DNA of 64,000 nt from Verrucomicrobia bacterium IMCC26134 (lineage in GTDB: Bacteria; Verrucomicrobiota; Verrucomicrobiia; Opitutales; Opitutaceae), in assembly GCA_000972765.1 (NCBI GenBank), contig CP011265.1:1054001-1118000 (forward strand). Reading direction: 5' to 3'. The notes below the pieces were generated by a model. The model was given only the letters and a program-made list of their open reading frames with translations, did no database searches and was not told the DNA's origin. Shown piece by piece: positions 838 through 23,850 of this stretch (its first letter is position 1; each line of letters opens with the position of its first letter). A program made the translations under genes and the position numbers.

Positions 838-2277
838 TCAGCGGCGACCGCTGCTGCGGGTCTGCCAGTGTGCGCCGGGGCGGCCTTTTTGGACGAGGGG
901 ATCGGGCACGCGGTCTTTGTTGTGCTGCTGGCCGCCGCTACCCTTGCCGCCGGTCGTGCCGGGCAGCGGTGCGCGGGGCTCGTTGTGGTCGGCGCGGCGG
1001 GGCGGCGAAGAGGGCCGCGGAGCGCCGTGGGCTGCAAAGCGTCCGCCGCCTTGCGGCGCGGGACCTGGGCCACGGCTCGGACCGCGTCCGCCTCCGCCGA
1101 AGCGGGGGCGGCGGTTCTCGTCCTCGGTGCCGGGTGCGGGAGCGGCGACCTTGGCTTTGTAGTCAAAGCCTTCGAGGTAGAGTTGCGGGATCTTGGCGTT
1201 GATAAATTTCTCGATTGCGCGGACTTCGCCGGTCTGGTCGGGCGAGACGAGGGTGAAGGCGTCGCCCTCCGCGGCGGCGCGACCGGTGCGGCCGATGCGA
1301 TGCACGTAGTCGTCGGGCGTGCCGGGGATGTCGTAGTTGATGACGTGGGTGACGCCCTGGACGTCGAGGCCGCGCGCTGCGATGTCGGTGGCTACCATGA
1401 CCTCGTAGCGGCCCTCTTTGAAGCCGGTGAGGGCGTCCTTGCGCTGGCCCTGGCTGCGGTTGCCGTGGAGGACGGCAACGGAGTGCTTCTCGGCCTTGAG
1501 TTTCTTGGCGATTTTGTCGGCGCCGTGCTTGGTGCGGGTGAAGACGATGACGCTGTGGAAATCGGTCTTCTCTAGCAACGCCAGCAGCAGGGTGAACTTG
1601 AGGTGCATCGGCACCGGATAGATGGCGTGGGTGACGCTCTCGTTGACCGAGCGCTGACGACCGATGCTGATGCGGGCGGGGTCTTTGAGGGCGAAGCGGG
1701 CGACGGCCTCGATCTCAGGCGGCACGGTGGCCGAGAAGAACAGGGTCTGCCGGACCTTCGGGCACATCGCCACGATCTTTTTGACGTCGTTGATAAAACC
1801 CATGTCCAGCATGCGGTCCACTTCGTCGAGGACGAGGATCTCGATCTTGTCGAGGCGCACTTCGCGCTCGTTGAGGAAGTCCATCAAGCGGCCCACGGTG
1901 GCGACGACGATGTCGGCGCCGGCGCGAATGTCGGAGCGTTGTTTGCCATAGCCGACGCCGCCGTGGAGCAGGGCGCGACGGGAGTCGGTGAACTTGCCGA
2001 ACTCCATGAACGCCTCGTCCACCTGGGCGGCCAGTTCACGGGTGGGCTCCAGCACGAGCACGCGGGGGCCGCCGGCTTTATGGGGGCCGAGGCGATTGAG
2101 AATCGGCAGCGCGAAGGCGGCGGTTTTACCGGTGCCGGTCTGGGCGGAGGCAATGAGATCGCGGCCGGAGAGGACGACGGGAATGGCCTGCTCCTGAACG
2201 GGTGAAGGCGTGGTGTAACCCTTGGCCTCGATGGCGCGGAGGAGGCTGGTATGAAGACCGAGTTTTGTGAAAGGCAT
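838..2277 (-). CDS. DEAD-box ATP-dependent RNA helicase, RhlE-like
   Basis: 479 residues from ATG at 2277; a TTG two codons upstream is a less likely start. All helicase-core motifs are present: Q-motif region, motif I AQTGTGKT (45-52), PTRELA, motif II DEVD (151-154), SAT (182-184) and HRIGRTGR. Motif II reads DEVD instead of the name-giving DEAD, a conservative change that keeps the catalytic Asp-Glu. After the core (about residue 375) comes a basic Gly/Arg/Pro-rich tail with RGG-like patches, a common non-specific RNA-binding extension in RhlE-type enzymes. Likely role is RNA remodelling in ribosome assembly or mRNA decay in the cytoplasm. It is divergent from the fused sugar kinase gene next door, about 100 bases apart. 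Confidence 0.93.
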   Translation of the reverse strand: MPFTKLGLHTSLLRAIEAKGYTTPSPVQEQAIPVVLSGRDLIASAQTGTGKTAAFALPILNRLGPHKAGGPRVLVLEPTRELAAQVDEAFMEFGKFTDSRRALLHGGVGYGKQRSDIRAGADIVVATVGRLMDFLNEREVRLDKIEILVLDEVDRMLDMGFINDVKKIVAMCPKVRQTLFFSATVPPEIEAVARFALKDPARISIGRQRSVNESVTHAIYPVPMHLKFTLLLALLEKTDFHSVIVFTRTKHGADKIAKKLKAEKHSVAVLHGNRSQGQRKDALTGFKEGRYEVMVATDIAARGLDVQGVTHVINYDIPGTPDDYVHRIGRTGRAAAEGDAFTLVSPDQTGEVRAIEKFINAKIPQLYLEGFDYKAKVAAPAPGTEDENRRPRFGGGGRGPSRGPGPAPQGGGRFAAHGAPRPSSPPRRADHNEPRAPLPGTTGGKGSGGQQHNKDRVPDPLVQKGRPGAHWQTRSSGRR

Positions 2278-2360
2278 GGGCAATTGCCAAGTAGCTGGAC
2301 GCTAAACGCGAGGGGAAAAACCCAGGCGGGGGTCGTGTATTCGGCTCGACGCAAGCCCGC

Positions 2361-2379: not shown

Positions 2380-3507
2380 ATGATTCGCGTCTTTGTCTCA
2401 GGTTGCTACGATATCGTCCACGCCGGCCACGTGCAGTTTTTCCGTGAAGCGCGGGCCTTGGGCGATCATCTCACGGTGAGTTTCGCATCGAGCGAAGTGC
2501 TGTGGATTCATAAGCAGCGGCGCAGTTCCCTGCCCGACGACCACAAGCAGGCGCTCATCGCCGCGCTCGGTTGCGTGGATGACGTCGTGGTGGGGTGCGG
2601 CACCGATGAGGGAATCGACTTCCGAGAACATTTTTTGCGCATCCGCCCGCAGATCCTTGCTGTCACCGAGGACGATAAATACTCGCCGCTTAAGAAAGCC
2701 CTCTGCGCCGAGGTGGGTGCCGAGTATGTCGTTCTACCAAAGACTCCCCCGCAGTTTGCTCCCATCTCGACCAGTGAGATCGTGCGTTGGATCAAAGCCC
2801 CGGCGGTCGCGCCCCTGAGGGTGGATTTTGGCGGTGGCTGGCTGGATGTGCCTCGTTTTGCTCGTCCAGGCACCTATGTGGTGAACTGTGCAATCTCGCC
2901 GACGGTTTCGTTGCGAAGCTGGACTTATGAGCGTAACGCCGGCCTTGGCGGCAGCGGTGCATGGGCGCTGCTGAATGGTAAAAACGGCGTCAGTGCCGAG
3001 CTCGATCTTGGGGTGGGTTGGCAGGATCCCGCCGTGGTGGTGGAGACGGGGCTCTGTGTGTGGCGAAGTGGGGCCCGCCCTGATCTGGAGGTGAAGACAT
3101 CGGGTGATTTTCTGCGCGGATGCATGGCGATTTACTGGACCGGATCCACTCACGATACACCGGGTAACGTGGACAACCTGCGTGACTTCGACGCCATAGC
3201 CCGGGCCGGCGCACTCGCCCGCGAAGCGGTCTGGGCCAATGATCTCAGCAAGCTCGCCGAAGCGGTGCGGGTTTCCTATTCCATGCAGATAGGAGAAAAA
3301 ATGGACCCGCTGCCCGGAGATCCGGCTGCCGGCCCGGCCGGCAGCGCTGCACTCGGCGGAGTATCGCCTTTGGCATGGAAATACTGCGGCGGCGGCCATG
3401 GCGGCTACGCGCTTTATTTGTGTAAAGACGCCGCTGATCGTGATCTTTTGTGCGCCCAGTCCGGGTTCCGGGCCATAGAGCCTTACGTCGCTTTGGCGGG
3501 TATCTGA
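2380..3507 (+). CDS. Cytidylyltransferase-like / GHMP kinase fusion protein
   Basis: 375 residues from ATG 2380; an in-frame upstream ATG at 2251 would add 43 non-conserved residues overlapping the divergent helicase. Residues 1-137 are a nucleotidyltransferase domain of the cytidylyltransferase fold: nucleotide-binding HAGH (14-17) and a C-terminal ISTSEIV (129-135) matching the ISSTxIR motif. Residues 144-352 resemble GHMP kinases of the HddA/fucokinase type: APLRVDFGGGWLDVP (144-158), a modified phosphate loop GLGGSGAWA (188-196) and the C-terminal glycine motif CGGGHGGYA (336-344). The kinase part is short, about 210 residues against 300 or more in typical members. The pairing of a sugar kinase with a nucleotidyltransferase suggests successive phosphorylation and activation of a sugar, as in HldE (which uses an unrelated PfkB kinase) or plant FKGP. 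The substrate is unknown. Confidence 0.75.
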   Translation: MIRVFVSGCYDIVHAGHVQFFREARALGDHLTVSFASSEVLWIHKQRRSSLPDDHKQALIAALGCVDDVVVGCGTDEGIDFREHFLRIRPQILAVTEDDKYSPLKKALCAEVGAEYVVLPKTPPQFAPISTSEIVRWIKAPAVAPLRVDFGGGWLDVPRFARPGTYVVNCAISPTVSLRSWTYERNAGLGGSGAWALLNGKNGVSAELDLGVGWQDPAVVVETGLCVWRSGARPDLEVKTSGDFLRGCMAIYWTGSTHDTPGNVDNLRDFDAIARAGALAREAVWANDLSKLAEAVRVSYSMQIGEKMDPLPGDPAAGPAGSAALGGVSPLAWKYCGGGHGGYALYLCKDAADRDLLCAQSGFRAIEPYVALAGI

Positions 3508-3563: not shown

Positions 3564-5546
3564 ATGGAAAAACGTCCCTTTAAAGATTTGGGCCTCTCGC
3601 CCGATGTTCTCAAGGCCATCGACAAGATGGGCTTTGAGGAAGCCTCGCCGATTCAAACTGCGGTCATCCCGTTGCTGCTCGAGGGCCGCGACGTCGTCGG
3701 CCAGTCAGCCACCGGATCGGGTAAAACCGTCGCATTCGGCGTTCCCGCCGTCGAAGCAATCGACCCCGCCATCCGAAAGCCCCAGGCCCTTATTCTCTGC
3801 CCGACCCGCGAGCTCGCCGTGCAAGTCGCCGAGGAAATTGGTAAACTCGCCTACTTTAAAAAAGGGGTGCGCGAAGTGCCCATCTACGGCGGCCAGAGCT
3901 ACGAGCGCCAGTTCCGCGCCCTCGAAGCCGGAGCGCAGATCGTGATCGGCACGCCCGGTCGCGTGATGGATCACATGGAGCGCGGCACCCTGCCGCTCGA
4001 CGCCCTCAAGCTCGTCGCCCTCGACGAAGCCGATCGCATGTTGGACATGGGTTTCCGTGACGACATCGAGCGCATCCTCGCAGCCACCCCGGCCGGCCGC
4101 CAGTTGCTGTTTTTCTCGGCCACGATGCCGCCGCCGATCAAGCAGCTCATCCAGCGCTACGCCAAGGACCCGGCCTGGGTGAAGATCGAGGCCCTCGCGC
4201 AAAACGCGCCGCAGGTTGAGCAGGTTTACTTCGAGGTGGACCGCCGCTCGAAGATCGAGGCACTCACCCGCCTGATCGATATCAACGATTTTCGCTTCGG
4301 TATCGTGTTCTGCGCGACCAAGCTGATGGTGGACGACCTCGCCGAGCACCTTGGCTCGCGCGGCTACTCGGTGGACCGCCTGCACGGCGACATCACCCAG
4401 GCGAACCGCAACAAGGTCATGGACAAGTTCCGCCGCCGTGGCTTCGAGTTCCTGATCGCCACCGACGTCGCCGCCCGCGGCCTCGATGTGGACGATCTCG
4501 AGGTGGTTTTCAACTACGACCTGCCCAACGATTCCGAGGACTACACCCACCGCGTCGGCCGCACCGGTCGTGCGGGGCGCAAGGGCAAAGCCTTTACCTT
4601 CGTCTCGGGCCGCGAGGTTTACGGTCTGCAGAACATGATCCGTTTCGCGAAGCTGAAGATCCGCCGCGAAAACATTCCCTCTCTCGATCAAGTCGAAGAA
4701 GCCCGCGAAAACGTGTTTTTCGAGCGCCTGCGCGCCACCCTTGATGCCGGGATGTTCCGCAAGCAGGACCGCATGATCGACCGCTTGCTCGAGCAGGGAT
4801 ACCCGAGCACCGATATCGCCTCCGCGCTGATCCATCTCATGAACGGTGGCGCGGCCGGCGATCCGTCTGCGAGCGGCGAGAGTGCGGCGGCGGCCCGTCC
4901 TTACGATGACGAGAGCGGTCCGGCACCCGCGCTGCCTGCGCCGCCCGCGATCAGTGTCGCTCCGGTTCCGGCCCTTGCCCCCGCCCCCAAGCCCGCAGCC
5001 AAGGCTGCTTTGAAGTCCGCGCTGCCACCCGGCTACGTCGCGCCATCAGCCAGGCCGGCATCGGACGAAGCGCCGGCGGTGTCCACGTTCAAGCCCGCGA
5101 TCAAGCCCGCCGCCAAGGCTGAGGGCTGGAAGGCCGCTCCATTCGCCAAAACCAAGGTTGCTGCGCCCAAGTCCGATCCTCGTCCCGGCGAAGTCGGCGC
5201 CGACACTCCGCGCGAGGGCGATGACGAAGCGGTTCGTCCGTCCAAACAAAAATACGAGCGCGCCGCCCGCACCGGACGCGAGCCCGGCTTCACCACGATT
5301 TATCTGAACGTTGGCCGCAAGAACCTCGTCACCCCGGCTGACATCGTCGGCAAGGTGGCGGGTGTCACCCGGTTGCCGTCCTCGGTGGTGGGTGCAATGG
5401 ACATCCATCAGCGCCACACGTTGGTGGATGTGAGCAGCGCCAACGCCGAACTAATCGTGACCAAGATGAGTGGCATTCGACTCAAAAATATCGCGCTTGC
5501 ACCTGCCTTGGCCACCGACGCGCACCGCGCCGAACCTCGGGATTGA
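3564..5546 (+). CDS. DEAD-box RNA helicase with C-terminal DbpA RNA-binding domain
   Basis: 660 residues from ATG 3564; the frame extends upstream to 3450 but that part overlaps the previous gene and is not helicase-like. Motif I SATGSGKT (48-55), PTRELA (80-85), DEAD (154-157), SAT and HRVGRTGR are all intact. A low-complexity Ala/Pro/Lys linker (about 430-570) leads to a C-terminal domain of about 70 residues starting near [17 protein letters not shown], which has the hallmarks of the DbpA/CsdA-type RNA-binding domain. Enzymes of this layout act in ribosome biogenesis or cold-shock RNA unwinding. It is transcribed in the same direction as the kinase fusion, 56 bases downstream of it, and closed by the strong terminator at 5571. 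Confidence 0.94.
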
Positions 5547-6413: not shown

Positions 6414-7220
6414 CTAGGGCGTCTCGGTCAGGACGCTGTAGAATATCCGGTTAAGAATCGTTGCGTTGTCCGTAAAGGTGAGACTGGAGCCGCTGACTTG
6501 AGAGGTGGCGCCGCTCACCGGCGCCCAGAATCCGGGGCCAAGGTCGGTGCAGCTCCATAGAGTCTGGGACGCGCCGCTGTTCTGTGCCACGGTGAGGCTG
6601 AAGCCGGTGCCGCTCGTCCCGAAAGCGGTGACGGCTGGCTTGGTCGCCGTGGCGTAGGTGGTGACCGTGCCGCTGCTTGTGCCGGCGGGGAGGCCGTTGG
6701 TCACGACTTTGGTCCAGCTGGTGTAGTTTGGGATTTCTCCGAGCATGGTGCCGGAGAAGGCGGGCCAGCCACCGTTGGCGCACGGGGCGGTGTTGGCGCC
6801 GCCAAGGTGCCATTTTCCAAAATGTTTGAGTTGGTAGCCCAAGTCGCTGTTGGCGGCGAAGGCGTCGGGCAGAGTGAATTCGGAGGCCTTGAGTGCATTG
6901 CCGGCTGCGGCGGAGAAGACATTACCCGTGCCGGTGCGTAGGCCATAGCGGCCGGTGAGAATGCAGGAACGGGTGGGCGAACAAACAGGGTAGGCGTAGG
7001 CGTTGGTAAACCGCACACCGGCGGCGGCGAGGGTGGCTATCTGCGGGGTCGGGGAGACGCTGGCCCCCTGGCTCATGTTATAGAGCGGACTGGCGTCGGT
7101 GCCGTAGTCGTCTGCGATGATCAGCAGAATGTTGTTCGTGGAGGCAGCACGGGTCGTAGTGACGGCAAGACACCCCAAAGTTATGACTCCGACAACGACA
7201 AGCAGTCGTTTATAAGCCAT
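6414..7220 (-). pseudogene. Sulfatase with internal deletion (N-terminal catalytic part joined to C-terminal sandwich domain)
   Basis: An open frame of 268 residues from ATG 7220 (an ATG ten codons further upstream also exists). It starts with a signal peptide (MAYKRLLVVVGVITLGCLAV, cut near TRA-A). Next come sulfatase N-terminal motifs: metal-binding ADDYG (36-40), the formylglycine site CSPTR (Cys80) with GRYGLRTG, and FGKWHLGG (134-141). At about residue 191 (near 6650) the protein jumps to a C-terminal module of roughly 70 residues (FSLT...LWSCTDLG...FTD...RIFYSV) that resembles the beta-sandwich tail of exported verrucomicrobial enzymes. The second half of the sulfatase fold, with the remaining metal and substrate residues, is absent (full enzymes have 450 or more residues). 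Most likely an in-frame deletion derivative without activity. A functional short protein cannot be excluded because the frame is intact. Confidence 0.7.
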
Positions 7221-7418
7221 TCGTTTTAACGTTCCTAAACGTGCGGGCATGGGATGGGGCGCAACTATTTTGTAAGGGTAACTCTATCGAACGGGGACGA
7301 GAAGCCGACTATTCAGGTTACATCCACATTTGCGTGTAGAACAAGCAAGAGGGCAGGCTGCTACTGAGGGGGGATGAACTTTTACCTCCGGAAAAACGGC
7401 TGCCTCAGTGAGGGCGGA

Positions 7419-8924
7419 CTACCGCGTAGTTTCCAGCTCCGACCAGCGGACGGTGAGGATCCAAATCGCACAAAAAGTAGTTAGAATCGCCGGATTGTAG
7501 AGCGGGAAATCCATCCAAGAATGCGCCATGATCAGGCCGAGTCCGAGCACGATCAGGATATAGGCCGGTTGGCTCAGGCCGCCCAAGCGGCAAAGACGCC
7601 ATACCAGCCAACCGAGCGCGCATAAAGGCAGGGCGAAGCCGATTATACCGAGCTCTGCGAGCGCCTGGGCGTAGTCGTTGTGGGCGTGGTCCCAGAATAG
7701 CACGTGATCCTTACCGGAGCGGAATATATTCGGGTAGTGCTGCTGTTTTTCGGTGAAAGCATGACGGAAGCTGCCCGCGCCCCATCCGGTCATGGGCTTG
7801 TCTTTGAAGAGGTCCATCGTCGCGTTGCGCGCGCTGATGCGGAAATCGATGTATTCGCTGGTAGCCGGATTGAAGAGTGTGCCCAGTTCGGTCAGGTTTT
7901 TACCCAAATTAAGGTAGGTGGCGCCCAGTCCCATGAAGGCAAACGATACGACGGCAACGATGATGGAGACGGTGCGGTTTCCTTCTTTTTCACCTCCGTA
8001 GATACGCCATAGTCCAAACAGGATCGTTCCAACCACCACATAGACGAGGAGCAGGATCAGCGCGGCGCGCGAGTTACTGACACACACCAGCATGCCGGTG
8101 ATGATGGCGGCAATAGCATAGACAGGAGCGGGACTGCTCCGGACCAAGCGGCGCTGGCTGCGAATCATGTGCCAAGCCATCAGCCCTACAGCGACGAAGG
8201 TGATGAGATTGAAATAGGCGCCGCCATGATTTTCGTAGACGAAGGTGGCTACGGGATGCGCAACCGGCACCTTGATGAACCACAGGATTTTCGATGTATG
8301 GCTGACTTGTTGGAGAATTCCCAAGATGGCGAGCACAGTGCCGTTGAATACCAGGGCACCCAGCACACTCATGACTGCGGTGCGTCGACTCAGTCCGGTC
8401 CAGAGCGCGCACCCGAGCAACCAGATCGAGGCGTATACCGAGAGCATGCGCCAGGCATTCATTTTGCCCACGGGGGCTTCCACGCTGGTGGGCAGCCACG
8501 TGATGTGATCCCGGCTTTGCAGCCACCAGGCGCTTCCGTCAGTCATGCGGGTCCAGGCGGGATTCAAGGCCTGGGTGAGCACATATCCGACGAAAACCAA
8601 ACCGATCCAAAAAACAGGGAAACGAATCAATCTCAGGATGGGGTTAATGCGAAAAGGGCCCTCCGGTGAGTATTCGTTTTCATACTGTCTCGGCAGCAGG
8701 GAGAGAACAAAACTGACCAGGGCGAATCCCAGGATAGTAAACTGAGACCAGACATCTCGGGTGCCGATGGCCCAAGGCAGAAAGGAAAGGTGGATGACCG
8801 CGACGATGATGAGGGCGCGTTCTTTCGGGTGAATGGGAACCGGAACGCGTTGTTCGCCGCGAAACGACTGCAAGAGGGCTGCCGCTTGGTTGGGCGGGGT
8901 GGCGGGTGACAGAGGGGGGCGCAC
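7419..8924 (-). CDS. O-antigen ligase / Wzy-type polymerase family membrane protein
   Basis: About 501 residues if a GTG at 8924 is the start; the frame runs further upstream into dxs (to 9176) with non-homologous, proline-rich sequence, so the start is uncertain. It has about ten or more hydrophobic segments, a large periplasmic loop, and the Wzy_C signatures: NSRAALILLL and, after the loop, HAHNDYAQALAELG. These are typical of enzymes that ligate or polymerise lipid-linked polysaccharide at the periplasmic face. It follows dxs on the same strand, starting about 20 bases after its stop or overlapping it, so co-transcription is likely. Ligase and polymerase activities cannot be separated by sequence. 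Confidence 0.82.
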   Translation of the reverse strand: MRPPLSPATPPNQAAALLQSFRGEQRVPVPIHPKERALIIVAVIHLSFLPWAIGTRDVWSQFTILGFALVSFVLSLLPRQYENEYSPEGPFRINPILRLIRFPVFWIGLVFVGYVLTQALNPAWTRMTDGSAWWLQSRDHITWLPTSVEAPVGKMNAWRMLSVYASIWLLGCALWTGLSRRTAVMSVLGALVFNGTVLAILGILQQVSHTSKILWFIKVPVAHPVATFVYENHGGAYFNLITFVAVGLMAWHMIRSQRRLVRSSPAPVYAIAAIITGMLVCVSNSRAALILLLVYVVVGTILFGLWRIYGGEKEGNRTVSIIVAVVSFAFMGLGATYLNLGKNLTELGTLFNPATSEYIDFRISARNATMDLFKDKPMTGWGAGSFRHAFTEKQQHYPNIFRSGKDHVLFWDHAHNDYAQALAELGIIGFALPLCALGWLVWRLCRLGGLSQPAYILIVLGLGLIMAHSWMDFPLYNPAILTTFCAIWILTVRWSELETTR

Positions 8925-8943
8925 GGGCGAGTTCGGTGGTTGA

Positions 8944-10929
8944 TTAGACAGCGCAGGCTTGGACCGGAGTTTTACTGGAGGAGGCCCCATGGGCGCTGGG
9001 GGGCGTGGGGCCGAGGCGATTCCGGATGCGGGCGAGCATGCCGGCGGGTGACAGGCCGTTTGCCTCGCGCAAGGAGGCTTGATTGGTGCCGTGCCCGATG
9101 AAGACGTCGGGCCAGCCGAGCCGTTCGACGGGCACATCCATCCCGGCAGCGGAAAGGGTTTCCAGCACGGCTCCACCGAAACCGCCTGTGATCACGTGGT
9201 CCTCGATCGTAACGATGAGGCGTGCCTGGCTGGCATGGCGCAGCAGGAGTTCCCGGTCGATCGGTTTTACAAAACGCGCGTCGATGACTCCGACCTCGAG
9301 TCCGTCCTGCTTGGAGAGGGTCTCGGCGAGTGCGAGTGCGTCGGCGACCATCGGGCCGAGCGCCCATATCACGACCTCGGATCCAGGGCGGACAACCATC
9401 GCCTGTCCCAGGGGCAGAAGCCCGCGCGCGTTCTTGGCGGCTGCTCCGGTGACAGCGCCGCGGGGGTAGCGAATAAAAGCGGGGCCGTCGTAGGCCAGTG
9501 CGGTCTGGAGCATGTCGACCAGCTCGTGCTCATTGCTCGGGGCCATGATGAGCGCGTGCGGGATGGGACGCAGGTAGGCGAGGTCAAAAACGCCGTGGTG
9601 GGTGGCGCCGTCGTTCGGTGATAGGCCGGCGCGATCCATGCAGAATACGATGGGCAGGCGCTGGAGCGCGACATCATGAATGATGGAGTCGTAGGCGCGC
9701 TGCAGGAAGGTGGAGTAGATGGCCACCACCGGTTTTATGTCCTGGGTGGCGAGGCCGGCGGCGAAGATTACCGCGTGTTCCTCAGCTATGCCGACGTCGA
9801 AAAAGCGCTGGGGCAGGGCGGCGGCGAGGTGGTTGAGTCCCGTGCCGCTCGGCATGGCGGCGGTTATGCCGACGATGCGTTTGTCCGTGCGGGCCAGGCG
9901 GACGAGTTCGTGACCGAAGACATCCTGGTAGTTCGGCGGTGAACCGGGAGCGCCACCCTTGCTCTCGCCTGTAGTGGGATCGAAGGCGCCGAGACCATGG
10001 AACTTTTCCGGATGGGCCCTGGCGGCATCCAATCCCCGGCCTTTTTCGGTAACGATGTGAAGGAGGACGGGCGTATCCGTGTCGCGCGCGAATTCCAGGT
10101 TTTTGATCAAATCATCGAGATTGTGGCCGTTGATAGGACCGATGTAGCGCAGGCCGAATTTCTCGAACAGCGAGGACTCGACGAAGAAGTCCTTTGTCTC
10201 GCGTTTCCATTTGTGCCAGAGCCGGTTCATATCCGGTCCTCCGGGCAGCCCGAGGAAGAATTGCTCGATGTCGTGGTGAACCTTGTTGTAGGTGCGGTTG
10301 GTAGAGAGTTTGGTGAGATATTTGGCGATGGCGCCGACGTTTTTGGCGATGGACCACTCGTTATCGTTCAAGATCACGACCAGACGTTTGGTGGAGGCGA
10401 CGACGTTGTTGAGGGCTTCCAAGGTGATTCCGCAGGTGAAGGCGGCGTCGCCGCAGAGGGCGACAACGTGTTCATCGGTGCCCTTGAGGTCGCGGGCGGT
10501 GGCCATGCCGAGGGCGGCGGAGAGTGCGGTGCCCGCATGTCCTGCGCCGAAGGAATCGTGTGCGCTCTCATCACGGTTGAGAAAGCCGGAGGCGCCGTCG
10601 TTCTGGCGGAGTTTGCGGAAGAATTCGCCCTGGCGGCCAGTCAGGAGCTTGTGAACATATCCCTGATGGGAGACATCGAAGACGAACTTATCCTTGGGCG
10701 TGGAGAAGACTCGATGCAGGGCGATGGTCAACTCCACGACGCCGAGGTTTGGGCCGACGTGGCCGCCGTTGCGGGCGGTGACTTCTATGAGTTCATCCCG
10801 GATCTCTTGGGCGAGTTGCGGTAGTTGCTCCAAGCAGAGCCCTTTGACGTCTTCGGGTGAGCGAATTTGGTCGAGCAAGCGAAGCGGGGAGGGAGGTGCG
10901 GAAGCCGAGGTTTCGGCGGTGGAATTCAT
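8944..10929 (-). CDS. dxs: 1-deoxy-D-xylulose-5-phosphate synthase
   Basis: 661 residues. Condenses pyruvate and glyceraldehyde 3-phosphate with thiamine diphosphate, the first step of the MEP isoprenoid route. Visible family features: GGHVGPNLGVVELT, the ThDP/magnesium motif GDAAFT...N, FGLRYIGPINGH, the catalytic Glu in GIAEEHAVIFAAGLA, YSTFLQRAYDSIIHD and DRAGLSPNDGATHHGVFD. Several motifs diverge from the common form (SHQGYVHK for GHQAYPHK, GAGHAGTALS for GTGHSSTSIS, GDAAFTCGI for GDGALTGGM), suggesting a distinct clade. It lies 29 bases after xseB, an order resembling the xseB-ispA-dxs arrangement of other bacteria but without ispA. Other MEP genes are at 41-46.6 kb. Confidence 0.92.
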   Translation of the reverse strand: MNSTAETSASAPPSPLRLLDQIRSPEDVKGLCLEQLPQLAQEIRDELIEVTARNGGHVGPNLGVVELTIALHRVFSTPKDKFVFDVSHQGYVHKLLTGRQGEFFRKLRQNDGASGFLNRDESAHDSFGAGHAGTALSAALGMATARDLKGTDEHVVALCGDAAFTCGITLEALNNVVASTKRLVVILNDNEWSIAKNVGAIAKYLTKLSTNRTYNKVHHDIEQFFLGLPGGPDMNRLWHKWKRETKDFFVESSLFEKFGLRYIGPINGHNLDDLIKNLEFARDTDTPVLLHIVTEKGRGLDAARAHPEKFHGLGAFDPTTGESKGGAPGSPPNYQDVFGHELVRLARTDKRIVGITAAMPSGTGLNHLAAALPQRFFDVGIAEEHAVIFAAGLATQDIKPVVAIYSTFLQRAYDSIIHDVALQRLPIVFCMDRAGLSPNDGATHHGVFDLAYLRPIPHALIMAPSNEHELVDMLQTALAYDGPAFIRYPRGAVTGAAAKNARGLLPLGQAMVVRPGSEVVIWALGPMVADALALAETLSKQDGLEVGVIDARFVKPIDRELLLRHASQARLIVTIEDHVITGGFGGAVLETLSAAGMDVPVERLGWPDVFIGHGTNQASLREANGLSPAGMLARIRNRLGPTPPSAHGASSSKTPVQACAV

Positions 10930-20356: not shown

Positions 20357-20437
20357 GGCGCCTGTTTTAAACGCAGTTCAAGAATGGCGTTGATCGTTGA
20401 TGGCGAGGTGCTTTTCAATCGCCCTTCATTTTTCAAC

Positions 20438-21862
20438 ATGACCACGCATCCCGTTATCGAAGCTTTTCAAAACGCCGGACAAGGCCACGTTTTCGCCTTT
20501 TTCGACCAACTTAACCCTTCGCAGCAGCAAGACTTGCTCACCGACGCCTCAGAGATTGATCTCGCCGAGGTTGCCGAGCTTAACCGCACGCTCGTTCAGA
20601 AGCAGGGCGGGGCCGCAGGCGTGGATCTTTCCGACCTCGCTCCCGCACCTTACGAGTCTCTTCCAAAGAACGGTGGCGACGCCTCCGCCTGGTCCGCCGC
20701 CAAGCAGACCGGCGAGGCCGCCCTGCGAGCCGGTCGAGTGGCGGCTTTTGTGGTCGCGGGCGGTCAGGGCACGCGCCTTGGCTACGACGGCCCCAAAGGC
20801 ACTTATCCGGTCACGCCGGTGCTAAAGAAAAGCCTCTTTCACGTATTCGCAGATAAACTACGCGCGGCCGGCGTTCGTTATGGACGTCCCCTGCACTGGT
20901 TTATCATGACGAGTGACGTTAACTATGCCGCGACGACCGCCTTTTTCCGCGAGCACGCCTTCTTTGGCCTGGCCGAGACGCACGTCCACTTTTTCAAGCA
21001 GGGTCGCATGCCGGCAGTTGGCTTCGACGGCAAAATCCTGCTCGAGCACAAACACCGCATCGCCATGTCGCCCGACGGTCACGGCGGTTCGCTTCGCGCC
21101 CTGCACCGTAGCGGAGCGCTCGACCTTATGGCCAACGAAGGCATCGACATGATGAGCTACTTCCAGGTGGATAATCCGCTGGTGCGTTTTATCGATCCGA
21201 CCTTCATCGGCTGGCATCTGATCCGCCGCTCCGAAATGAGCAGCAAGATGATTCCCAAGGCCTACGCCGGTGAAAAAGTCGGCCATTTTTGTTCCCAGCG
21301 CGGCCAGACCGTGGTGGTGGAATACTCCGACCTCCCCAAGGCCTATCAGGACGAGGTCGATCCCGCCACAGGCCGCCTCCGTTACATCGCCGGCAGCATC
21401 GCCATCCATCTGCTCGACGCCGCTTTTATCCGGCGCATGGCCACCGGTGCGGACGCACTGCCTTTCCATCGCGCGGATAAAAAGATCCCCTGTCTCGACG
21501 CCGCCGGAAACGCGGTGAAACCCGATAAACCCAACGGCGTGAAGTTTGAACTCTTTGTCTTTGACGCGCTACCTTTCGCGAAGAACCCCGTCGTCATCGA
21601 GACTGACCGGGCTGATGATTTCTCGCCGGTAAAAAATGCCGAAGGCGTCGATTCGCCCAAGAGCTGCGCGGAGGACCAGGTGCGCCAGTTCACCCGCTGG
21701 GCCAACGCCCACGGTGCCGCCGTCCCGGTGGACGCCACCGGGCTGCCGCCCTTCACTTTCGAGGTATCGCCCCTCTTCGGTTACGACGAGGATAGCTTTG
21801 CCTCCGCCTGGAATTCCCAGACACCCAAGCCCGCTATTTCCGCCGGCGACGTGCTTTCCTGA
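20438..21862 (+). CDS. UDPGP-family UDP-sugar pyrophosphorylase (UDP-GlcNAc pyrophosphorylase-like)
   Basis: 474 residues from ATG 20438; an upstream in-frame ATG at 20384 adds 18 poorly conserved residues. The nucleotide-binding loop GGQGTRLGYDGPKG (108-121) is characteristic of the eukaryote-like UAP/UGP family (UDPGP), unrelated in detail to bacterial GalU or GlmU. KQGRMPAVGFDGKILL, DGHGGSLRAL, YFQVDNPLVRF and the C-terminal NGVKFELFVFDALPFA also fit UAP. It probably makes UDP-GlcNAc or a related UDP-sugar from UTP and a sugar-1-phosphate. A phosphohexomutase gene follows 26 bases downstream and would supply the sugar-1-phosphate. Confidence 0.88.
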   Translation: MTTHPVIEAFQNAGQGHVFAFFDQLNPSQQQDLLTDASEIDLAEVAELNRTLVQKQGGAAGVDLSDLAPAPYESLPKNGGDASAWSAAKQTGEAALRAGRVAAFVVAGGQGTRLGYDGPKGTYPVTPVLKKSLFHVFADKLRAAGVRYGRPLHWFIMTSDVNYAATTAFFREHAFFGLAETHVHFFKQGRMPAVGFDGKILLEHKHRIAMSPDGHGGSLRALHRSGALDLMANEGIDMMSYFQVDNPLVRFIDPTFIGWHLIRRSEMSSKMIPKAYAGEKVGHFCSQRGQTVVVEYSDLPKAYQDEVDPATGRLRYIAGSIAIHLLDAAFIRRMATGADALPFHRADKKIPCLDAAGNAVKPDKPNGVKFELFVFDALPFAKNPVVIETDRADDFSPVKNAEGVDSPKSCAEDQVRQFTRWANAHGAAVPVDATGLPPFTFEVSPLFGYDEDSFASAWNSQTPKPAISAGDVLS

Positions 21863-21888: not shown

Positions 21889-23850
21889 ATGAGCCTCCTC
21901 GCCTACCTTCAAGCCGCCGGCGCCGCCGGGCAGCTCCTTCCCTCCACGTTAAATAACATGGAGACCTGGCTTGCCGCCGGCCTGCCCAGCTGGGCAAGCT
22001 CCAGCCTCGAAGAACTCGTGGCCAAGCAGGCTTGGGGCGAGCTCAACGACCGCTTTTACCGCGACCTCGAATTCGGGACCGGAGGCATGCGCGGCCGGAC
22101 CATCGGGACGGTTTCCACCGCTGCCGAGCAAGGCAAGGTCGGTCCGCTGGGCACGCCCGAGCACGCCGCCATCGGCAGCAACATCCTCAACGACTACACT
22201 CTCGTTCGCGCTACCATAGGCCTCTTTCGCCATACCGCCGCCTATCTCTCGGCCAAGGGCGACCCTCGTCTGCCCGCGTTGGTAATCGCGCACGACGTCC
22301 GTCACTTCTCGCGCCACTTCTGTGAACTCGCCGCCTCCACCTGGTCACGCCTCGGCGGTCAGGCCTATATCTTCACCGGCCCGCGCTCCACGCCGCAGCT
22401 GAGCTTCACCGTGCGCTGGCTCGGTGCCCACGCCGGCGTGGTCATCACCGCCAGCCACAATCCCCCGCACGACAACGGGTTTAAGGCCTACTTCGACGAT
22501 GGCGCGCAGGTCGTGGCGCCACACGACAAGGGCATCGTCACCGAAGTCGGCAAGGTTCCGCTCGGCGAACTACCCGCCTACCTCGTCAAGGAGCTGGCCC
22601 GGGTTGTCACCCTTGGCGCATCCGCCGACGAAGCCTACCGTGCCGCCGCCGCCACGGCGGTTATTGATCGCTCGGTCTTCGCATCAGCAAAACTCAAGGT
22701 TGCCTTCACCTCCATCCATGGCGTGGGCAACATCATGTCTGTGCCGCTTCTTAAAGAGGCGGGCGTTGAGCTGCATGAGGAGCCTGCGCAGGCAGTGCAC
22801 GACCCGCGTTTCCCCACCGTCAAGTCACCCAACCCGGAGAACGCCGACGCGCTTTCGCTCGCAATCAAGCTGGCCGAGGAAAAGGGACTCGATCTCGTCA
22901 TGGCCACCGACCCCGATTGCGACCGCATGGGCGCCGCGGTGCGGGGCAGGGACGGCAAGATGCACCTCATCACCGGCAACCAGATCGGTGCCCTGATGAC
23001 CGAGTATCGTCTTTCCCGATATAAGGAGCTCGGCGTCATTCCCAAGGCCGGTTCCGATCGTGTCGCGCTGGTGAAGACCTTCGTGACCACCGCACTGCAG
23101 GATGAGATCGCGCGCAGCCACGGCGTGAAGGTCGTCAACACCCTCACCGGCTTCAAGTGGATCGCCGGCAAGATCCGTGGCTATGAGGACAAGCTCAAGA
23201 CCGGCTACCTCTCCAAGCACGGCGTCGCCATTGACTACAACGCCACGCCCTTCGCCAGCCGCGCGAAGCTCTTGCAGGAGTTTTCCACCTTCTACGCATT
23301 CGGCTGCGAAGAGAGCTACGGTTATCTCGCGAACGATCTGGTGCGCGACAAGGACGGCAACTCCGCCTGCCTCATGCTGGCCGAGGTCTGCGCCTATGTG
23401 AAGAGCCGCGGACTCACGATTCCCGAGTATCTCGACGAGATCTACCTGCGCACGAGCTACTATCTCGAAGGCGTGGTGAATCTCTACTACGAGGGCGCGA
23501 GTGGAGCCGCCAAGATCAAGCGCATCATAGACGGCTATCGCACTAACCCGCCGTCCGCCTTCGGCGAAGTAGCGGTGACCAAGTTCGAGGACTTCGGCCG
23601 CATGGATATTCGCGACGCAGACGGCGAACTGGTGCCCAAGCAGGACCTTTACGTGGTGACGCTGGCCAACGGTTACACTTTCGCCGCCCGCGGTTCCGGC
23701 ACGGAGCCGAAGATGAAATTTTACGTTTTCGCCAAGGCATCGGTGAAGACCGCCGCCGAACTGCCCGCCGTGAAGGCGGCGGTTAAGGTCGAACTCGACC
23801 GCGTCAAAGCCCTTATCGAAGCCGATGCCCAGAAGCGCGCAGAAATATAA
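21889..23850 (+). CDS. Phospho-sugar mutase (phosphoglucomutase/phosphomannomutase family)
   Basis: 653 residues; longer than PgmB/ManB types and typical of the large bacterial phospho-sugar mutases (PGM2-like). The phosphoserine loop is TASHNPPHDNGFK with Ser189, the metal site DPDCD (341-345), the sugar-binding FGCEESYGYL and the phosphate-binding RGSGTEPKMKFY at the C-terminus are all intact. Converts hexose 6-phosphate to 1-phosphate. Same operon as the upstream UDP-sugar pyrophosphorylase, which consumes the product for nucleotide-sugar synthesis. Confidence 0.93.
   Translation: MSLLAYLQAAGAAGQLLPSTLNNMETWLAAGLPSWASSSLEELVAKQAWGELNDRFYRDLEFGTGGMRGRTIGTVSTAAEQGKVGPLGTPEHAAIGSNILNDYTLVRATIGLFRHTAAYLSAKGDPRLPALVIAHDVRHFSRHFCELAASTWSRLGGQAYIFTGPRSTPQLSFTVRWLGAHAGVVITASHNPPHDNGFKAYFDDGAQVVAPHDKGIVTEVGKVPLGELPAYLVKELARVVTLGASADEAYRAAAATAVIDRSVFASAKLKVAFTSIHGVGNIMSVPLLKEAGVELHEEPAQAVHDPRFPTVKSPNPENADALSLAIKLAEEKGLDLVMATDPDCDRMGAAVRGRDGKMHLITGNQIGALMTEYRLSRYKELGVIPKAGSDRVALVKTFVTTALQDEIARSHGVKVVNTLTGFKWIAGKIRGYEDKLKTGYLSKHGVAIDYNATPFASRAKLLQEFSTFYAFGCEESYGYLANDLVRDKDGNSACLMLAEVCAYVKSRGLTIPEYLDEIYLRTSYYLEGVVNLYYEGASGAAKIKRIIDGYRTNPPSAFGEVAVTKFEDFGRMDIRDADGELVPKQDLYVVTLANGYTFAARGSGTEPKMKFYVFAKASVKTAAELPAVKAAVKVELDRVKALIEADAQKRAEI

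Follow-up and report, generated by a model that had tools for sequence, protein, structure and literature searches.

The window analysed here is the whole 64,000-nucleotide stretch of DNA from Verrucomicrobia bacterium IMCC26134, a genome (G000) that consists of a single 4.0-Mb contig and carries one copy of the fusion gene described below. This gene lies on the forward strand at positions 2380..3507 (ATG at 2380, stop codon at 3505-3507), and its translation is a putatively bifunctional protein of 375 aa. The aligned relatives share the start at 2380, and in nearly every one of them this first residue is Met; a longer frame, with an ATG at 2251, runs into a divergent gene for a DEAD-box RNA helicase (838..2283, reverse strand). 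A second RNA helicase gene, of the DeaD/DbpA type (3564..5546, forward strand), begins 56 bp past the fusion stop codon, and both helicases, identified by Pfam, are regarded as flanking genes outside the system. The preliminary description of this DNA suggested that the fusion might feed envelope genes in the window. The neighbours of the fusion are, by Pfam, the two helicase genes and one HNH gene, and no sign was found of linkage to the window gene for an O-antigen ligase-like Wzy_C protein (7422-8990, reverse strand), located approximately 4 kb away; this part of the description is not supported. Elsewhere in the window, a gene for a UDPGP-type uridylyltransferase adjoins one for a phosphoglucomutase/phosphomannomutase (20384-21859 and 21889-23847, both on the forward strand), and an ORF of 278 aa (6414-7250, reverse strand) matches positions 2-121 of 301 only of a sulfatase profile and is perhaps a truncated sulfatase.

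The N-terminal half of the protein (residues 1-140; 2380..2799, forward strand) is a nucleotidyltransferase domain with the nucleotide-binding motif HAGH (HxGH; residues 14-17, 2419..2430) and, in the translation, the motif ISTSEIV (residues 129-135, 2764..2784). It matches Pfam CTP_transf_like (PF01467) at 1.7e-9 and NCBIfam TIGR02199 (heptose-1-phosphate adenylyltransferase) at 1e-14; the latter score amounts to 54.6 bits where the cut-off is 181.5, which marks this half as a relative and not as that enzyme itself. In the structure model described below, this domain matched 3glv with Z 17.2 and an rmsd of 1.7 over 118 residues (VIA-align). Conservation was counted over 151 aligned rows, from which 10 incomplete or transferase-only ORFs had been removed beforehand; H14, G16, and H17 are kept in 151/151 rows, and position 131 is T in 112 and S in 39.

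The C-terminal half (residues 141-375; 2800..3504, forward strand) belongs to the GHMP kinases by fold and homology, and its profile, Foldseek, and VIA-align matches characterize it as a compact fucokinase-like domain. All of its features lie on the forward strand: kinase motif 1, PLRVDFGGGWLDVP (2812..2853), in which R147, W154, and D156 align to R592, W599, and D601 of the fucokinase FKP (5yys, residues 589-619); a short link between motif 1 and the phosphate loop (residues 174-187, 2899..2940), where FKP has residues ~620-713; the phosphate loop GLGGSGA (residues 188-194, 2941..2961), in which S192 aligns to the FKP Mg ligand Ser719; GWQDP (3016..3030), in which Q215 and D216 align to FKP Q761 and the general base D762; and kinase motif 3, KYCGGGHGGY (residues 334-343, 3379..3408), in which G339 aligns to residue 326 of Akkermansia-like proteins. 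The GHMP signature set is present, i.e., the motif 1 Arg (R147), the Mg-binding Ser (S192) in a glycine-rich loop, D216, and motif 3, all invariant in 151/151 rows; within motif 3 this applies to K334, G337, G339, G341, and G342.

Profile searches with the two halves separately gave a divided outcome; residues 1-140 matched as described above, whereas residues 141-375 on their own had no Pfam GHMP match, and the GHMP homology of this half emerged through a 26-row profile, the distant relative L112, and a structure model. Among 20 close relatives, a single one matched Pfam GHMP models (E 0.27), and these models were over cut-off in three of nine relatives scanned (L112, L121, and L114); L112 matches GHMP_kinases_C (3.1e-9), HddA (2.7e-22), and FKP (1.7e-19) directly. 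When the 26-row profile of the C-terminal half, which includes rows of the more distant cousin type introduced below, was compared with the PDB, the FKP fucokinase was the top match (6.2e-19), followed by WcbL/HddA-type kinases (2.3e-17 to 5.5e-14) and then mevalonate kinases; the same search with window-type rows only was weak (best match 4.2e-6, a mevalonate kinase; FKP at 7.3e-4), so much of the PDB-profile signal comes from the cousin rows. An AlphaFold2 model from 60 alignment rows (mean pLDDT 92.4, pTM 0.79) superseded an earlier 30-row model (pLDDT 75.8) that was poor around residues 176-221. The top Foldseek match of this model was the fucokinase part of FKP (9iip, 1.6e-11), although the TM-score was low (0.44/0.46) and the rmsd over the whole alignment was 8.1. 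In VIA-align, GHMP kinases could be superposed on residues 127-373 of the model with Z 16-21, including 9iip (Z 19.1, rmsd 3.8, 227 residues); as some mevalonate kinases and galactokinases score higher, the fold alone does not point to FKP.

According to PMC11982464, FKP holds fucose through Trp599, which stacks on C4-C6, Asp601, Thr602, which contacts the C3-OH, Gln761, and Asp762; Asp762 is the proposed base, helped by Arg592 and a metal on Ser719, and the W599A and D601A substitutions lower efficiency >3000-fold. By alignment, R592, W599, D601, Q761, D762, and S719 of FKP correspond to R147, W154, D156, Q215, D216, and S192 of the window protein; all six are invariant (151/151 rows), as are G188 and G213. 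By contrast, the counterpart of T602 (V157) is variable (of the 151 rows, 122 have V, 27 have Q, and one each has T and I), the counterparts of Ser720 (position 193) and Gly717 (position 190) are G in 119/151 and 122/151 rows, respectively, and E207, the likely counterpart of E751, is kept in 137/151 rows with a different spacing. Motif 1 of the window protein reads GGGWLD, while the aligned heptokinase-type structures (4usm, 4usk, 3k85, and 4n3o) have GGGTD or GGGSD without the Trp. As judged from these alignments, the kinase pocket points to fucose.

At 235 residues, the kinase half is shorter than every GHMP chain among the 50 structural matches listed (minimum 285), and the WcbL chain, at 345, is ~110 residues longer. 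The interval from D156 to S192 is 32 residues in 28 rows, 36 in 122, and 42 in one, as compared to 118 between the motif 1 Asp and the Mg-binding Ser in FKP (residue numbers D601 to Ser719) and ~97 in WcbL (counted on alignments). Modelling in PMC11982464 proposed adenine contacts of FKP at Asp644, Met645, Pro666, and Ile669, with Leu722 as a fifth; by sequence, the FKP stretch with the first four is missing in 151/151 family rows, and the Leu722 position lies outside this stretch. In addition, S192 and D216 are 24 residues apart in 122 rows, which represent the window type, and 42-45 apart in 29 rows, making the window type ~19 residues shorter. Because the proposed adenine-holding segment is missing, the kinase half may use no ATP, or may be no kinase. 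Adenine may be held differently, another phosphate donor may be used, or phosphorylation may have been lost. A bolder reading, in which the kinase half would take phosphate from the pyrophosphate released by the transferase half, appears highly improbable; if it were true, a single nucleotide, and not two, would be spent on activation.

A tblastn search over genome contigs confirmed 194 relatives, 80 of which were kept; 79 of these 80 locus proteins, with 360-375 aa, align over both domains, and the remaining one (L072) is cut by a contig end. From the HAGH, ISTSEIV, and GLGGSGA motifs, the preliminary description had recognized a compact GHMP kinase joined to a nucleotidyltransferase, and the analysis bears this out. 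Of 288 genomes sampled from the phylum, 147 gave a match at E 1e-10, in many cases to the N-terminal half only. Two groups of similar length have both domains: the window type (Opitutales, Akkermansia-like, and others) and the more distant cousin type in other lineages. In a tree of the 151 rows (quick method), the window protein and the Akkermansia-like proteins, at ~60% identity, both fall within one supported clade of 122 rows; several Akkermansia-like genomes, so called for their MurJ neighbour and copy pattern among other traits, carry two fusion copies. The fusion is thus conserved over many Verrucomicrobiota genomes and is not due to chance. Coverage beyond Verrucomicrobiota was slight, and the labels of MAGs that carry the fusion as Rhodothermales, Myxococcales, or Proteobacteria are possibly binning errors. 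Seven MAG loci (L001, L006, L007, L058, L073, L075, and L077) are labelled Akkermansia muciniphila, Gammaproteobacteria, Myxococcales, Rhodothermales, or Proteobacteria, and their fusion proteins group with rows labelled Opitutae or Spartobacteria, such that their labelling or binning is questionable. With the cousin L118 as query, plasmids yielded only three partial matches, all to its transferase part.

Several variant arrangements were also observed. A stand-alone nucleotidyltransferase adjoins the fusion in some Akkermansia-like genomes (L124:8150-8581, L123:159-662, and ORFs in L191, L194, L195, and L196), and ORFs in L071 (2743-3579, reverse strand) and L184 have two tandem nucleotidyltransferase domains by the family profile and no kinase; for the L071 ORF, with 279 aa, Pfam lists one domain. 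In L075 (2974-7077), an open frame of 1368 aa terminates with the fusion; the preceding 1008 aa are without a Pfam match and perhaps represent a GC-driven open frame.

Gene neighbourhoods were compared across 151 fusion loci, i.e., 120 window-type and 31 cousin-type loci, with some genomes fetched twice and 113 loci having at least 2.5 kb on both sides. In eight of the 151, the fusion and gmd share a strand and are 21-422 bp apart, and fcl is located past gmd after a further 6-441 bp. The order is fusion-gmd-fcl in an Opitutaceae locus (L052) and three cousins (L118, L166, and L167), and fcl-gmd-fusion-wecG in four Akkermansiaceae-like loci (L080, L154, L155, and L156); the linked rows fall in three separate parts of the 151-row tree (quick method). 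In L154 and L118, gmd is over the NCBIfam cut-off, and fcl matches GDP-L-fucose synthase strongly, at 472.6 and 424.5 bits, but short of the 500 bits that this model requires. The identity of wecG was checked for L154, and gene names in the remaining linked loci rest on tblastn to the L154 and L118 genes. Two further loci have gmd farther off, at 2.2 and 4.0 kb (L168, on the opposite strand and with no fcl seen, and L179, respectively). In 143/151 loci, the window included, neither gene was seen directly beside the fusion (38/151 have <2.5 kb on one side). Only adjacency was used as evidence; the mere presence of gmd was dropped, as it occurs in 47/75 carriers and in 22/22 non-carriers. The linkage to gmd and fcl suggests a GDP-fucose pool as the context of the fusion.

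A second type of linkage concerns the second-copy fusions of Akkermansia-like genomes, where in five of seven loci (L126, L161, L162, L163, and L165) a GH29 alpha-L-fucosidase gene follows an acyltransferase gene 3' of the fusion; the match in L126 is to PF01120 at 2.5e-37. The other two second-copy loci, L160 and L164, have the acyltransferase and gave no fucosidase match. Across the 100 window-type loci compared, no neighbour gene common to most was found with a simple, crude gene caller, which yields overlapping antisense frames in GC-rich DNA.

Genes of the heptose pathway were searched for in 59 genomes, 27 of them window-type carriers. The complete genome G000 has no match to GmhA, no HldA-type kinase at the family level (best PfkB-like match 3.4e-9), and no HldD at the family level, with general epimerase matches of at best 5.5e-35. 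All three are absent at the family level in 13/27 window-type carriers, G000 included. Of these 13, 10 lack any match to GmhA and three have one of at best 1.9e-13, HldA matches reach 5e-15 as compared to 1.5e-89 or better in the other 14, and HldD is never over cut-off (best 3.8e-46, versus 1.5e-103 or better in the 32 genomes over cut-off). The weak GmhA, HldA, and HldD matches are read as other isomerases, PfkB kinases, and epimerases; at E 0.001, TIGR02198 and TIGR02197 match something in every one of the 59 genomes. With a strong HldA match in 14/27 carriers and none of the three in 13/27, the fusion occurs both with and without the heptose pathway.

With regard to other fucose-type enzymes in these 59 genomes, FKP proper is over cut-off in two (G131 and G140), both non-carriers; two further non-carriers, G088 and G010, score 540 and 511 bits against the FKP model (cut-off 721), and an ordinary FKP was not found in G000. 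Outside the window, at ~1701144-1704479 of the G000 contig (C1; L146:3145-6480, reverse strand), another kinase-pyrophosphorylase fusion is encoded, a protein of 1112 aa in which an FKP-like kinase region precedes a UDPGP domain; it has the motif GGGWQD and matches NCBIfam FKP at 2.4e-18, under cut-off. A link between this gene and the compact fusion was considered and dropped, since the two adjoin in one genome only (G119; L144 = L189); in L073 the kinase-UDPGP gene is nearby on the opposite strand, and in other genomes it lies elsewhere.

Literature searches for GHMP kinase-nucleotidyltransferase or -cytidylyltransferase fusions (bifunctional; Verrucomicrobia) found nothing. The "undescribed" status that the preliminary description had considered possible for this arrangement is nevertheless not supported, as the Akkermansia protein Amuc_1591, very probably of the same family, was published in June 2026 (PMC13313206, Gut Microbes, 26 June 2026). 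In that study, D-arabinose-resistant A. muciniphila were selected, and 12/12 mutants had lesions in Amuc_1591 (V176G, G326E, and one frameshift); growth under D-arabinose was restored by L-fucose or mucin, Amuc_1591 was in one transcription unit with murJ, and it was described as a probable fucose nucleotidyltransferase with a predicted sugar-binding C-terminal domain (PMC13313206). No mention of the missing FKP segment was found in the parts of PMC13313206 consulted. Our Akkermansia-like proteins have V at 176 and G at 326, the window counterparts being V176 and G339, and a MurJ gene (PF03023, 1.5e-96) adjoins one of their loci, L157. Both residues are kept throughout the family and in either copy, so that they fit Amuc_1591 without singling it out; what indicates the first copy is the adjoining murJ gene. 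That Amuc_1591 and the window protein belong to the same family is a strong inference, drawn from the description of Amuc_1591 in the paper and not from its sequence.

Taken together, these data indicate that the window protein is probably an L-fucose-activating enzyme of the Amuc_1591 type, i.e., a compact, FKP-like analogue of FKP; a sugar-activating enzyme is most likely, and fucose, like arabinose, was already among the earlier candidates. We propose that the compact GHMP domain would phosphorylate the anomeric OH of L-fucose, with D216 as base, R147 and S192-bound Mg assisting, and W154 and D156 holding the sugar, and that the HxGH domain would then couple fucose-1-phosphate to a nucleotide to yield NDP-L-fucose for envelope glycans. 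Parts of this scheme that we infer are the identity of Amuc_1591 as the Akkermansia orthologue, catalytic activity of both halves, the order in which they act, and the phosphate donor and nucleotide that they use. The fucose reading draws on the top rank of FKP in both the PDB profile search and Foldseek, the invariant pocket, the linkage to gmd/fcl and GH29, the missing heptose pathway, and the Akkermansia genetics; weighing against it are the missing adenine segment, the variable counterparts of T602, Ser720, Gly717, and E751, the 143/151 loci without adjacent gmd/fcl, and the low TM-score. As regards the nucleotide, the solved relatives of the HxGH half bear names such as cytidylyltransferase, HldC, or LPS core protein, which would fit CTP or ATP; the product may then be CDP- or ADP-L-fucose, so that GDP-fucose would not be the only type of fucose donor. 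By analogy, this is conceivable yet doubtful.

An alternative that we consider unlikely is that the C-terminal half is a degenerate kinase which only binds fucose or fucose-1-phosphate, in which case the protein would be a nucleotidyltransferase acting on fucose-1-phosphate made elsewhere. The absence of the FKP adenine segment from every family row, the ~19 residues fewer between S192 and D216 in the window type, and the lack of a Pfam GHMP match for the window half all fit this alternative; for Amuc_1591, PMC13313206 names a fucose nucleotidyltransferase and a predicted sugar-binding C-terminal domain. However, D216, R147, S192, and motif 3 are fully invariant, and a mere binding domain would need none of these. 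Moreover, making an NDP-sugar requires a sugar-1-phosphate and the search of G000 gave no ordinary FKP, although the 1112-aa kinase-UDPGP protein could supply one.

Compared with activation of L-fucose, a fucokinase-type action on another L-galacto-configured sugar (L-galactose or D-arabinose) or another 6-deoxy sugar seems improbable. FKP itself accepts D-arabinose and L-galactose weakly (PMC11982464), the T602 counterpart is not conserved in the fusion, and D-arabinose toxicity requires Amuc_1591 (PMC13313206); on the other hand, L-fucose relieves this toxicity (PMC13313206), and some relatives show the linkage to gmd/fcl and the GH29 fucosidase. Finally, an HddA/HldE-like enzyme activating heptose-1-phosphate, with heptose among the substrates first envisaged, is scarcely credible and for the window is largely refuted already, for even though the N-terminal half scores best against TIGR02199, the C-terminal half of L112 scores best against HddA, and 14/27 carriers have a strong HldA match, G000 and 12 other carriers of the 27 have no GmhA, HldA, or HldD at the family level and motif 1 has the fucokinase Trp in place of GGGTD.

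The family is widespread in Verrucomicrobiota and probably helps to equip the cell surface with fucose, a matter of relevance to mucin feeders such as Akkermansia. The occurrence of the FKP fucose pocket in a smaller kinase domain without the proposed adenine segment also bears on the lower size limit of a functional GHMP kinase.

Among known systems, HldE and HldC (heptose-1-phosphate adenylyltransferase) share a related nucleotidyltransferase domain with the fusion, where it is N-terminal. In HldE, by contrast, the transferase stands behind a PfkB kinase, at the C-terminal end (profile positions from 343 of 475), while the kinase of the fusion is of the GHMP type and C-terminal; the pathway partners of HldE/HldC are absent from G000. 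The heptokinase HddA/WcbL is a GHMP kinase of the same branch as the C-terminal half of the fusion, but it stands alone, has GGGTD without the Trp, and places ~97 residues between the motif 1 Asp and the Mg-binding Ser, as compared to 36 in the fusion. FKP (structures 9iip, 9iit, and 5yys) has the same order as the fusion, with the transferase first and the GHMP fucokinase second (PMC11982464), which contradicts the preliminary description of this order as different, and its R592, W599, D601, Q761, D762, and S719 have invariant counterparts. What differs is the transferase fold, a sugar pyrophosphorylase with a beta-helix in FKP and an HxGH-type transferase in the fusion, as well as the length (949 versus 375 aa), the T602, S720, and E751 counterparts, which are not invariant, and the missing adenine-holding segment; because its transferase half has another fold, the fusion may work like FKP but is no FKP. 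Amuc_1591 has the same two domains, in the order given by PMC13313206, and the Akkermansia-like proteins have V176 and G326, a murJ neighbour at one locus (L157), and a place in the same 122-row clade as the window protein; the window gene differs in lying between DEAD-box helicases and not beside murJ, and in being present as one copy versus two in several Akkermansia-like genomes. The window gene is therefore very probably a member of the recently described Amuc_1591 kind and not wholly new, with the shortened kinase half as its odd feature.
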